Positions 28,241 through 54,605 of a stretch of DNA of 64,000 nucleotides are shown one piece after another. A program made the translations under genes and the position numbers. The notes below the pieces were generated by a model that made no database searches, was not told the origin of the DNA, and worked only from the letters and a program-made list of their open reading frames with translations. The stretch lies in NCBI GenBank assembly GCA_949296355.1, contig CASFPS010000007.1, positions 51,908-115,907 of the forward strand, given 5' to 3'. The stretch is from an uncultured bacterium. GTDB taxonomy: Bacteria; Cyanobacteriota; Vampirovibrionia; Gastranaerophilales; Gastranaerophilaceae. The first letter of the stretch is position 1. Each line of letters opens with the position of its first letter.

Positions 28241-28650
28241 GTCACTCTGGAAAGTCTTAATACCAGACCGATACATTTACCCCCGCAATGACGCCAAGCT
28301 CGTAGTCTCACATGACAACCCAAATACATTTACCCCTGCTGTCATTCAGAGGGCGTGAGCCCGAAGAATCTCTATAACTTTTGTAAAAATTTTCTATTCA
28401 CTATTCACTCCTCACTATTCACCAGCAAAAGGGATTCTTCGCCCCTAAATTGCTGTCGGGCTCTGAATGACTGCAAGCTTGTCGGCTTACTTCATGACTG
28501 AAATACATCCCCCCCCGGGGCGAAGGAGGGAAAAAATTTCTTTGCTCCGGGTCATTTTGTAACAATTTCTTAATATTCATGCGAAAAAGTGTAAAAAGTA
28601 CAAATTTTTTGTTTTTTATAGTAATATATAGAAGTTAGTAAAATTTGATT

Positions 28651-48312: not shown

Positions 48313-48924
48313 CTATAGTTTTTGTATTTGTTTGTATTCTAATTCAACCGGAGTTTCACGTCCGAAAATTGAAACCATTGCTCTGAGTTTAGCCTTATCT
48401 GGGTAAACTTCAGTAATATCTCCGACAAACTCTGCAAACGGTCCGGATATGATTCTGACTTTCTCGCCAACCTTAACATCCATTTCAACCTTTTGAGTTT
48501 GAGCGGTAGATCTGTGAATAATTTTCTTAATTTCACTGTCTTTTGCAGGAATCGGCTTTTTAGCTGAGCCTACAAACTTTGTAACACCTGCAGTATGGCG
48601 TACAACATACCAGCTGTCCTCATCCATAATCATTTCAACAAGCACATAGCCCGGAAAAATCTTTTCTTCTTTTTCCTGCTTTCTTCCGCCTTTTATCTGG
48701 GTAATAGTTTTTTGCGGAACTTCTACACGGAAAATCTTATCTCCCATATTCATATACTCAATACGTTTTTCAAGATTGCTCTTTACTTTGTTTTCGTAAC
48801 CTGAATAAGTGTGAACAATATACCAGCGTTTTTGGTTCTTCTTGTCAGAAGACTTATTGCTTTCAGCTTCCTGAGTTTCTTCCGCTGTTCCTTCATTCAT
48901 AATATTTTCATCTTTTTCAGTCAT
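48313..48924 (-). CDS. nusG: Transcription termination/antitermination factor NusG
   Basis: NusG couples RNA polymerase to ribosome and Rho. An acidic N-terminal tail of about 30 residues precedes the NGN domain (RWYIVHTYSGYENKVKSNLEKR, FPGYVLVEM, RHTAGVTKFVG). The C-terminal KOW domain is KVGEKVRIISGPFAEFVGDI. The length is 203 aa. It lies between secE and rplK, as in most bacteria. Confidence 0.98.
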   Translation of the reverse strand: MTEKDENIMNEGTAEETQEAESNKSSDKKNQKRWYIVHTYSGYENKVKSNLEKRIEYMNMGDKIFRVEVPQKTITQIKGGRKQEKEEKIFPGYVLVEMIMDEDSWYVVRHTAGVTKFVGSAKKPIPAKDSEIKKIIHRSTAQTQKVEMDVKVGEKVRIISGPFAEFVGDITEVYPDKAKLRAMVSIFGRETPVELEYKQIQKL

Positions 48925-48941
48925 TATTTTTACCCTTCAAA

Positions 48942-49142
48942 TTATAACTTTGATAACAATGCATTAAAAATAATATCCACAACATAAATAAAGACAGTGA
49001 ATATAAACACAATTGCAACAACAAAACCTGTTTCAACAACAACCTGATTTTTTTCAGGCCATGTAATTTTGCCCCATTCAGTTCTTACGCCTTTAAAATA
49101 TGTAACTATATTCTTCTTTGCCGTTTCAAAAGTGTCGTTCAT
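48942..49142 (-). CDS. secE: Protein translocase subunit SecE
   Basis: SecE clamps SecY in the translocon. The 66-aa product has an amphipathic helix (YFKGVRTEWGKITWPEKNQV, with the conserved W-P) and a single membrane helix (VVAIVFIFTVFIYVVDIIF). This is the minimal one-helix form found in cyanobacteria and Gram-positives. It is 17 nt upstream of nusG and 25 nt downstream of tRNA-Trp. Confidence 0.97.
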   Translation of the reverse strand: MNDTFETAKKNIVTYFKGVRTEWGKITWPEKNQVVVETGFVVAIVFIFTVFIYVVDIIFNALLSKL

Positions 49143-49167
49143 TTTAATTACCTATTCTCATATAATT

Positions 49168-49240
49168 CGCGCCCTGAAGGACTCGAACCCTCGACATCCG
49201 GTTTTGGAGACCGACGTTCTACCAACTGAACTAAGGACGC
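49168..49240 (-). tRNA. tRNA-Trp (anticodon CCA)
   Basis: On the minus strand the acceptor GCGTCCT, D-loop AGTTGGTAGA, anticodon loop TCTCCAAAA (CCA), T-loop TTCGAGT and discriminator G form a normal cloverleaf of 73 nt. CCA is not encoded. Its place between rpmG and secE is the conserved bacterial order. Confidence 0.97.
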
Positions 49241-49253
49241 TTAACTGGTGATT

Positions 49254-49303
49254 AGTGACTAGTGAATGGTGAATAGAATACTACTCACTATTCACTAGTC
49301 ACT
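49254..49303. repeat. 23-bp inverted repeat between tRNA-Trp and rpmG
   Basis: The arms AGTGACTAGTGAATGGTGAATAG and its near-perfect complement (21 of 23) are separated by 4 nt. Related TCACTATTCAC words occur at 28395-28420, 42700-42715 and near 13160. Confidence 0.8.
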
Positions 49304-49311
49304 GTTCACTT

Positions 49312-49479
49312 CTATTTTGTTTCCTTATGTGTTGTATGTTTTTTGCAGGTAGGACAATATTTGCTTAATTCTAATCTGTCCTTAGTATTCTTTTTGTTCT
49401 TAACTGTTGTGTAGTTTCTTTCTTTGCAGTCTTCACAAGCTAAAACTACCATTCTGTCATTTTTACCTTTAATACCCAT
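49312..49479 (-). CDS. rpmG: 50S ribosomal protein L33
   Basis: The 55-aa ORF was read directly from the sequence. It encodes [18 protein letters not shown], then [13 protein letters not shown] and [13 protein letters not shown]. Two CxxC pairs (CEDC and CPTC) make it the zinc-binding form of L33. AAAGG precedes the ATG. It is the first gene of the minus-strand rpmG, tRNA-Trp, secE, nusG, rplK, rplA cluster. Confidence 0.96.
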
Positions 49480-49577
49480 TTTGACTTTCCTTTATAACTT
49501 ATTTCAATGCTATTTTATTTTTGGAGTAACCTAGTGTAATTTACCGCTTTAATTTTACCCCATTTTTAACCTTTTTA

Positions 49578-49604
49578 AAAAGAATGTGTTAAACACATTC
49601 TTCA
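49578..49604 (-). terminator. Rho-independent terminator of the flagellin gene
   Basis: On the minus strand AAGAATGTG-TTTAA-CACATTCTT is followed by TTT, about 90 nt after the flagellin stop. Confidence 0.75.
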
Positions 49605-49696
49605 TAAAAAATCGGCGTATGATTAAATCCTAAAATAAACATAAATAAAATGCAAATAATATGTGAAGTTTTTTTAATATAAAGATTCAGGATATA

Positions 49697-51377
49697 TTAA
49701 AGCAGCTGTAACGCAATAGACGGAGTCTGATTTGCTGTCGCAAGCAAAGTTGCGGAAGCCTGCTGCAGGATCTGATTTTTAATATAATCACTTGAAGCTT
49801 CAGCAATATCAGCGTCTTGAAGAGTTGAACGAGAGGAAGTAAGATTATCAATACTTACCCCTATAGTGTCCAGCGCTGATTCCAGACGGTTATATGCAGC
49901 ACCGTATTCTGTTTGTTTTGAAGTCACCTGTGCCAGCATATTATCCAATTTTGCAAGAGCCTTGCGCGCTGCCTCGGATGTTGAAACATTCAGAGCGGAT
50001 AATCTAAAATTAAACTCTGTATCAATAGATATTTGAGAGGAAACATCACTATGAATTCCAACCTGAAATACTATCTCTGTTTCTTCCTCTTCTAACACCA
50101 AGTTATATCCGGGGAGCTGATTGTTCATTTTTAGTTCCTCAATCTCAGCCGATGTTGCGCCGGTAATTCCGGATGTCGAGCCTTGCCCCGCTCCGGTGGT
50201 TGGTCGGGAGGTTTCAGTATTCCAATAGCTTGAAGTAACGGTACCTGTTTCATTAGAACCAGCTAACGCACCCACCTGAGAAGTTCCGGTAGCCTTACCT
50301 TCTGAAAAAGAATTTGACACGGTACTTGAAGAATTGTTATGCCCTACAAGACCTCCCACTCTGTTATCACCGGTGACATCACTCTGAGCGAATGAATAAT
50401 TTATTGAGGAATTAATTGTATTAAACCCTACAAGCCCGCCTACACGATAACTATCCCCTGACACATCTGCCATAGAGTAGCAGCTTTCTATTGAAGAATT
50501 ATTGGTATTATACCCCACAAGAGCCCCTATATCGCTATACCCTGATACGTTACCGGTTACATAACAATTTGTAATATTGCTGCTAAGACTATATCCGGCT
50601 AAAAGGGCAGAGTATCGTCTTCCTGTAACACTTGCATTCTCAATAGCAAGATCAGAAATCGTTGCATTCTGAATTTTTCCGAATAAACCATAATAATCAT
50701 AAGTATTATTATTCAAAAAAAAGATTCGAGACCGTGTATCCGTTTCCGTTAAACTCTCCTGTAAAAGGATCACTCAAATCCCCGATAGGCGTCCAGTTTT
50801 CTCCGGATAAATCAATGTCTCCCATAAGAATATATTTACCGCTTAAGTTATTATTAATTGCCTGAAGGTCATCTGCACTTGTAATAACAGTATAACCTTC
50901 CGCAATAGCTTCATCATAAGTAAGTGAATCAACATCCTGTATAAAATTGCTTCCTGATTCCTTAAATAATTTAATACCGTTGTATTCAGTATTAATCATC
51001 AGTCTGTCAATTTCATCAATTCTCTGGTTAAACTCTGCCTGTATTGCTCTTAAAGAATCCGTTCCGTAAGTACCGTTTGCTGCCTGTTCTGCCAGATCCC
51101 GCATTCTTTGTAAATGCGAAGTAATAAGACTCAAACTGTCAGATGCGGTAGTTAATAAATCCAAACCCATTGCTGTATTGTCCTGCGCAACACTGTATGA
51201 AGATAACTTGCTGGAATATTGAGTAACGATTGAATATCCTGCCGCGTTATCTTTTGCATGGTTAATCTTGTACCCTGTTGTCATTCTTTCAATAGCAGAA
51301 TTTAGTCTTGACGTAGATGACGTAAGACTTCTTTGCACAAGATTACTCAAAGAATTTGTGTTTAACGACAATATCAC
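49697..51377 (-). CDS. Flagellin with GLUG-repeat variable domain, frame interrupted at a T8 run
   Basis: The N-terminal frame (GTG 51377 to TAA 50709) carries the flagellin D0/D1 domain (NTNSLSNLVQRSL, NSAIERMTTGYKINHAKDNAAGYSI) and the start of an inserted domain (GKYILMGDIDLSGENWTPIGD). A second frame, to 49697, continues with about five GLUG-type repeats of 26 residues (VGGLVGFN, VGGLVGHN) and a normal C-terminal D1/D0 (LDTIGVSIDNLTSSRSTLQDADIA). The total span is 1681 nt, one more than a multiple of three. Deleting one T from the T8 run (plus-strand A8, 50715-50722) restores a 559-aa protein. SD AAGGA precedes the GTG. It could be phase-variable, slippage-dependent or a sequencing error. 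Confidence 0.9.
50715..50722. repeat. A8/T8 homopolymer at the flagellin frameshift
   Basis: The eight-base tract lies exactly where the two flagellin frames meet. The upstream frame stops two codons after it (GAA TAA). With seven T the downstream frame is joined; with eight it is not. Confidence 0.9.
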
Positions 51378-51391
51378 ATTTATACATCCTT

Positions 51392-51420
51392 ATATAAATA
51401 TTATATATTTTGTTTGTCAA
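51392..51420 (-). promoter_or_regulatory. Possible flagellin promoter
   Basis: On the minus strand TTGACA (51415-51420) is 17 nt from TTATAT (51392-51397). A perfect TATAAT lies at 51400-51405 but without a good -35. With the first arrangement the transcript would begin about 8 nt before the GTG and exclude the SD; with the second the SD is included. No FliA-type TAAA/GCCGATAA promoter is seen. Confidence 0.35.
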
Positions 51421-51467
51421 TCACTTTTGTTATTTGTGTTAAAATTGTAAAAAAACGGGAGATTAAA

Positions 51468-52748
51468 ATGATTAAATCAATTATACTGGCTGCCGGAAAA
51501 GGCACGAGAATAAAATCTGATATGCCGAAAGTTTTGCATACAATTTTTGATAAACCGCTTGTCGGTTATGTTATTGATGCTGTAAACAATACAGGGTTTG
51601 CGGATGAAAGTTTTGTAATCGTAGGACACAAAGCCGAACAGGTTGAAGAATATGTACACAATAATTACACTAATGCAAAGTGCATCCTGCAATCCCCGCA
51701 ATTGGGAACAGGACACGCTGTAAGTATGGCGCTTCCTTATCTGAAAGACTTTGGGGGAGAAGTTATTATTTTATGCGGAGATACTCCATTAATAACTACT
51801 GAAACCTTGAAAGAATTTATTGATTATCATAAAGAAAAAAACTCCGATATAACTGTTATGAGTGCTATTTTTGAGAATCCTTCTAATTATGGAAGAATAA
51901 TCAGAAAATCTGACGGTTCAGTAAATTCTATTGTAGAAGAAAAAGATGCAAATCCTGAGCAAAAAGCAGTTAAAGAAATTAATGCGGGAATTTATTGTAT
52001 CAACTGGGGCAAAGTAAAAGCAGCCTTTGCTGATTTGAAAAACAACAACGCTCAGGGGGAATACTATCTTACCGATATAATACAATGGGGAAATGAGCAT
52101 AATTTAGCCGTAAATGCGTACACGCTTTCCGATAATACAGAAATTTACGGTATAAATTCCAGAGCAAACCTTGCAGAAGCATCTAAGATATTGAATAACA
52201 GAACATTGAATAAACTTATGGCAGAAGGGGTTACTATAGTTGACCCGGCTGCAACCTGGATAAGTCCTGAGACAGAAATTGATTCTGATACTATAATTTA
52301 CCCGTCCTGTTATATTAACGGCAAAAATAAGATAGGAAAACATTGCAAAATCGGTCCTTTTGCCCACTTGAGAGGAGATGTTGTACTGGAGGATTATGTA
52401 AAAATCGGGAATTTTGTTGAAGTTAAGAAAACAACAATAAAATCACATACAAACGCCTGTCATTTAACTTACCTCGGCGACAGTGAAATCGGAGCTAACG
52501 TTAATATCGGTGCAGGAACGATTACAGCCAATTACAATCCTTTAACAAAAGTCAAGAGTAAAACTATTATAAAAGACAACGTAAAAATCGGCTCTAACTC
52601 CGTTCTTGTAGCTCCTATAACAATAGAAGAAGGAGCTAACGTAGGAGCGGTCGGAGTAATTACCAAAAACATTCCGGCTTGGGCATTAGCAATAACAAGA
52701 GCACCTTTAAAAATAATTGAAAACTGGGTTGCAAATCATAAGAAGTAA
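51468..52748 (+). CDS. glmU: Bifunctional UDP-GlcNAc pyrophosphorylase / GlcN-1-P acetyltransferase
   Basis: GlmU makes UDP-N-acetylglucosamine for peptidoglycan and lipopolysaccharide. The N-terminal uridylyltransferase motif is LAAGKGTRIKSDMPKVLH. The C-terminal left-handed beta-helix (hexapeptide repeats) contains KIGNFVEVKK, HLTYLGDSEIGANVNIGAGTITANY and the terminal PAWALAITRAP. I chose ATG 51468, which follows GGGAG; the longer frame has no RBS. The length is 426 aa. It is divergent from the flagellin gene. Confidence 0.97.
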   Translation: MIKSIILAAGKGTRIKSDMPKVLHTIFDKPLVGYVIDAVNNTGFADESFVIVGHKAEQVEEYVHNNYTNAKCILQSPQLGTGHAVSMALPYLKDFGGEVIILCGDTPLITTETLKEFIDYHKEKNSDITVMSAIFENPSNYGRIIRKSDGSVNSIVEEKDANPEQKAVKEINAGIYCINWGKVKAAFADLKNNNAQGEYYLTDIIQWGNEHNLAVNAYTLSDNTEIYGINSRANLAEASKILNNRTLNKLMAEGVTIVDPAATWISPETEIDSDTIIYPSCYINGKNKIGKHCKIGPFAHLRGDVVLEDYVKIGNFVEVKKTTIKSHTNACHLTYLGDSEIGANVNIGAGTITANYNPLTKVKSKTIIKDNVKIGSNSVLVAPITIEEGANVGAVGVITKNIPAWALAITRAPLKIIENWVANHKK

Positions 52749-54536: not shown

Positions 54537-54605
54537 ATACATTTCCCCCCCCTTTGCCAAAAATCCTATTTTATTATATGATAGTACATAACAAGAGAGG
54601 GTGAA

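Follow-up and report, generated by a model that had tools for sequence, protein, structure and literature searches.

An accessory flagellin gene in the window (the whole stretch of 64,000 nucleotides that was analysed) is divided between two reading frames that meet at a run of eight T in the coding sense. On balance, we find it probable that a recent, lineage-private T7-to-T8 slippage during replication put this gene out of frame, and that the tract is not an evolved switch. The frame break is private to the sequenced lineage.

Organization of the split flagellin gene

The window belongs to contig C7 in a draft genome (G000; 2.09 Mb, 41 contigs, estimated 99% complete). The named relatives with this flagellin are MAGs of Candidatus Gastranaerophilales, which places the organism near Gastranaerophilales. 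The features of the gene are collected in Table 1. A Pfam search of both frames returned Flagellin_N (E-value 9e-33), GLUG repeats (1e-15) and Flagellin_C (2e-18); the two flagellin domains score above the curated cut-offs, as in a bacterial flagellin, though they lie in different frames. The initial annotation had described two intact halves joined at this tract and a span of one base beyond 560 codons. Its coordinates are confirmed and the arithmetic is right, the 1681 nt from 51377 to 49697 being 3 x 560 + 1. It had also placed the break in a variable domain, which proves to be the GLUG region: the break falls at about residue 220, early in the GLUG solenoid, with the tract ~39% into the gene. 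No further stop is present in either half in its frame (1668 coding bases). The TTGACA box upstream is promoter-like; its second hexamer is not clear, and a consensus scan missed the box. Two separate genes can be ruled out, since each half is without the opposite flagellin end and the homologues are single genes.

Table 1. Features of the flagellin gene and its upstream region (window coordinates).
Feature	Position	Strand	Basis or remark
GLUG-domain flagellin gene, 1681 nt, two frames	49697..51377	-	ORF list, Pfam domains, frame arithmetic
First-frame ORF: GTG start, 222 aa, TAA two codons past the T run	50709..51377	-	
Flagellin_N (PF00669)	50955..51362	-	residues 6-141 of first-frame ORF
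T8 run (coding sense), frame change point	50715..50722	-	plus strand = A8
Second-frame ORF, 358 codons from earliest possible start; remaining GLUG domain and Flagellin_C	49697..50773	-	
GLUG motifs (PF07581) passing alone	50291..50605	-	four matches on contig C7
Flagellin_C (PF00700)	49700..49954	-	residues 274-358 of second-frame ORF
TTGACA box (51420-51415) and AAGGAT before start	51386..51420	-	alignment; both present in 4/4 homologues

Homologues and sequence constraint

Within the genus, four genomes have a homologue at this locus, with 69-76% identity at the DNA level. All four homologues are open in a single frame of about 555-558 aa, and compared with these intact genes the frame in the window is disrupted, as in a pseudogene. 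The initial annotation had regarded seven T in related assemblies as a sign that the break is an error; T7 was not seen, and in the alignment all four homologues have no T run whatever at the site. In a family sample of 191 genomes, the other GLUG-flagellin matches above threshold either occupy one frame or are truncated where a contig ends. Searches of the genus, the family sample and GTDB contigs for a closer allele sharing this variable region found none, and phage records gave no match to the flagellin gene. The relatives carry different alleles and therefore say little about the tract history of the window allele.

Past the break (last 100 alignment columns excluded), dN/dS amounts to 0.13-0.18 in pairs that include the window gene and to 0.08-0.22 among the intact homologues, these ratios being rough because synonymous sites are near saturation. 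In this region the window gene has 11 private amino-acid changes, against 4-13 in the other homologues. Neither relaxed constraint nor further lesions were seen in the two halves; the extra mutations that the initial annotation named as a mark of a decayed gene are not there, and the gene is not visibly decaying. Under neutrality, zero extra stops in the 1668 coding bases correspond to a divergence since the break below ~0.038 per site, a bound compatible with a recent pseudogene. Since both halves look constrained and are free of an extra stop or indel, the break should be recent, read through, or an artefact. Such constraint would likewise be expected if the protein were still made in full, through switching or read-through.

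Proposed origin and consequences of the frame break

The simplest origin of the tract would be the expansion by one base, through replication slippage, of a T7 ancestor. Translation would then end two codons past T8; the resulting fragment of 222 residues would keep the N-terminal helices and lose the C-terminal ones together with most of the GLUG solenoid. In the D0/D1 region of flagellin, the C-terminal helices are required for polymerisation, so the truncated product should stay out of the filament, which would be built from the five intact flagellins of this genome. The lesion is probably leaky, as RNA polymerase may drop a U at T8: in E. coli, about 10% of a reporter was recovered through T8 deletions made by RNA polymerase (PMC6260861), which makes low-level full-length flagellin plausible. 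An opposite slip could likewise revert the lesion. Leaky frameshift mutants are known in which RNA polymerase slippage at A/T runs rescues the gene (PMC6260861; tssM of Citrobacter rodentium, PMC4256274). They share with the present case a disrupted frame whose break coincides with a slippery A/T run; rescue of the window flagellin in this manner is a prediction.

Homopolymers and reliability of the assembly

A sample of 434 kb of this genome, consisting of the window plus 20 stretches (370 kb) and containing 366 ORFs, was scanned for long frames that flank a homopolymer and can be joined by one base. Only at the flagellin T8 does a homopolymer clearly break a single gene; inspected by eye, the remaining candidates look like genes that adjoin or overlap, or like stretches of low complexity. 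Inside ORFs of at least 100 codons there are 30 A/T runs of eight or more, 29 of them sense A and one, that of the flagellin, sense T. Resampling of synonymous codons gives about 19 expected sense T8-or-longer runs for the one observed (the resampling count takes the flagellin T8 twice, the tract being in both half-ORFs), 45 for the 16 sense T7 runs, and about 91 for the 29 sense A8-or-longer runs. Coding-sense T8 is avoided in this genome, and its sole instance lies where a frame is broken. Slippage in replication and/or transcription has been argued to cause the avoidance of runs in bacteria generally (PMC1088944). The four sense A8/A9 runs inspected in the window all lie in open genes.

These counts bear on the possibility of a consensus or assembly error, or of a collapsed mixed population, with the gene intact in most cells. 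One base in a homopolymer is the commonest type of error, and the constraint retained on both sides of the break is what an intact gene would show. In the GeneTack survey, unclustered frame breaks were interpreted as sequencing errors or recent indels (PMC3711429); the latter agrees with the reading that we favour, and a break of this sort is often an error. However, with 29 other long A/T runs and no second clear homopolymer break in 434 kb, a generally error-prone assembly is unlikely, and we judge an error at this tract to be unlikely as well.

Poly-G/C runs of 8-14 are recurrent in this genome (37% G+C). The DNA around them resembles repeats, is mostly intergenic and has a TAAATGTATT-type neighbourhood in common; the runs occur at 28509-28516 and 54545-54552 of the window, at L050 11651 and 12132, L052 8811, L053 18285 and elsewhere. 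The two C8 tracts of the window (28509, 54545), intergenic and in repeat-rich DNA, were ruled out as a sign of phase variation. A G9 run at L054 ~15146 (minus strand) overlaps a ribosome-binding region, whose gene starts MGLTLAEKIISEHAGKEV and is leuC-like by eye.

Phase variation and programmed recoding

The initial annotation had proposed a phase-variable filament, in which slipped-strand mispairing between T7 (on) and T8 (off) would reversibly switch a surface-exposed filament variant in the population. We regard this as quite unlikely. The mechanism is possible and a slippage origin fits: T8 sits at the frame change, a change in its length alters the frame, both halves are intact, no second sense T8 occurs in the sample, and this flagellin is surface-exposed and fast-diverging. 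There is also a precedent in C. coli flhA (Park et al. 2000, cited in PMC2831843 and PMC3928116), a flagellar gene with a T8 in which a one-base slip shifts the frame, with reported rates of 3e-4 from T8 to T7 and 7e-6 in the opposite direction (PMC2831843). In that case, however, an export gene has the tract at its 5' end, switching was measured and all flagellin expression is affected, whereas the tract in the window lies in one of six flagellin genes, where switching is hypothetical. The comparative support for the proposal is absent, the tract being neither kept nor length-variable in the four same-locus homologues, which are divergent alleles. Nothing other than the tract positively favours a switch. 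Moreover, it lies mid-gene, whereas long bacterial A/T tracts tend toward the 5' end (PMC2831843), and no second break of such kind was found in the 434 kb. This genome has MutS (875-codon frame) and MutL (615-codon frame), whereas C. jejuni is without mismatch repair (PMC3928116); slower tract change is therefore expected here than in Campylobacter. Other broken GLUG flagellins, described below, carry different lesions, which also speaks against the proposal. The T8 tract was probably not selected as a switch.

Programmed recoding sites are normally conserved, and at the prfB frameshift a stop codon occupies the A site. Recoding by RNA polymerase slippage or a +1 ribosomal shift at T8, giving full-length protein at a set level, is very improbable: although the second frame is constrained and the E. 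coli reporter shows what deletion at T8 can restore (PMC6260861), neither the site nor a separate downstream frame is conserved in the single-frame homologues, and a ribosomal shift would need to take place ahead of GAA-UAA, where, unlike in prfB, the A site contains no stop codon.

GLUG domains in flagellins and in the filament cap

The intact homologue of genome G044 was modelled with AlphaFold2, from an alignment of six sequences only. In the model (overall pLDDT 71, pTM 0.57), beta structure at ~residues 150-410 is predicted with confidence (block pLDDT 82-97) and the terminal helices have low confidence. Among solved structures, M26 IgA1 proteases match it best (E 4e-5) and flagellins come next. 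The protein thus has the D0/D1 ends of flagellins with an inserted variable domain, as judged from Pfam and solved flagellins, the difference being that the insert would be a GLUG beta-solenoid with an M26 IgA1 protease as its best solved match. No report of GLUG flagellins was found in the literature searched, where the two papers with both 'flagellin' and 'GLUG' look unrelated from their titles and abstracts.

In this genome, GLUG was found only in the window flagellin and in a FliD. The latter is an open frame of 2,392 aa (L043:5036-12214, contig C4, minus strand) with terminal FliD_N and FliD_C and GLUG motifs in the middle. Among the matches listed for the genus, GLUG frames of 1,481-6,148 codons also exist, and at least 46 others of 518-818 codons are in the size range of flagellins and are candidate flagellins by size.

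Three short GLUG frames outside this genome, among the genus matches listed, were inspected in draft assemblies. The flagellin of G007 (contig C10) has an in-frame stop in the GLUG part (L101 1629-1631); in that of G035 (C5) the N-terminal half is missing and an A6 run ahead of Flagellin_C marks a change of frame (L103 361-1270); and that of G020 (C158) is also without the N-terminal half (L102 minus strand 2033-2998). As these are drafts, the lesions may partly be an assembly effect. Their type and position vary from gene to gene, which is better explained by repeated loss of accessory flagellins than by a conserved switch.

Divergence of the flagellin locus

Over the nearby 9 kb, long matches to this genome have 93-96% identity in G044 and 84-97% in G039. 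In the middle of the flagellin (50956-50156), identity is 56-68% to G044 and 53-73% to G039. The 3' flank is 97-100% identical to both, and glmU, on the other side of the flagellin, is mostly 84-97% identical to G044 and 69-80% to G039. With the flagellin far more divergent than its flanks, the region 48426-52142 looks like one in which flagellin alleles were exchanged by homologous recombination.

A wider form of the switch hypothesis would combine both features. In this non-photosynthetic cyanobacterial lineage of the gut, a T7/T8 contingency switch inside the structural gene would turn a flagellin filament with GLUG domains on and off, and recombination between sister species would add to the diversity of that filament. 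We consider this combination decidedly doubtful; if true, a filament antigen would be phase-variable in a group of gut bacteria from which our search brought up no comparable case. In the reading that we favour, the break is an ordinary event, one slippage knockout of an accessory flagellin, and its value would be as a pointer to a fast-diverging flagellin locus and to GLUG solenoids on filament and cap. With these, flagellar surface variation in Gastranaerophilales becomes a testable subject.

Other flagellar genes

The genome has six flagellin genes, and the five others are open (288-372 aa). The frames of FlhA, FliG and FliD are open as well, and FlgL and a FlgK-like gene, both named from sequence and position, are present. 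General decay of motility is ruled out, with five flagellins and the tested core flagellar genes open. Within Gastranaerophilales, full flagellar sets have been described in some members and only a subset in others (PMC4040986).

In the family, a flagellin of genome G153 (L070, contig C14) has a C11 run at nt 445 of an open 610-codon frame, just past the N-terminal domain; by tract type, it is a better candidate for phase variation than the T8 of the window. Finally, three FHIPEP (FlhA-family) matches are present in the genome analysed here, at C4:88679-90670, C30:11913-13889 and C15:28647-29699. Two of them are full length, and three matches in one genome make a second export system possible.
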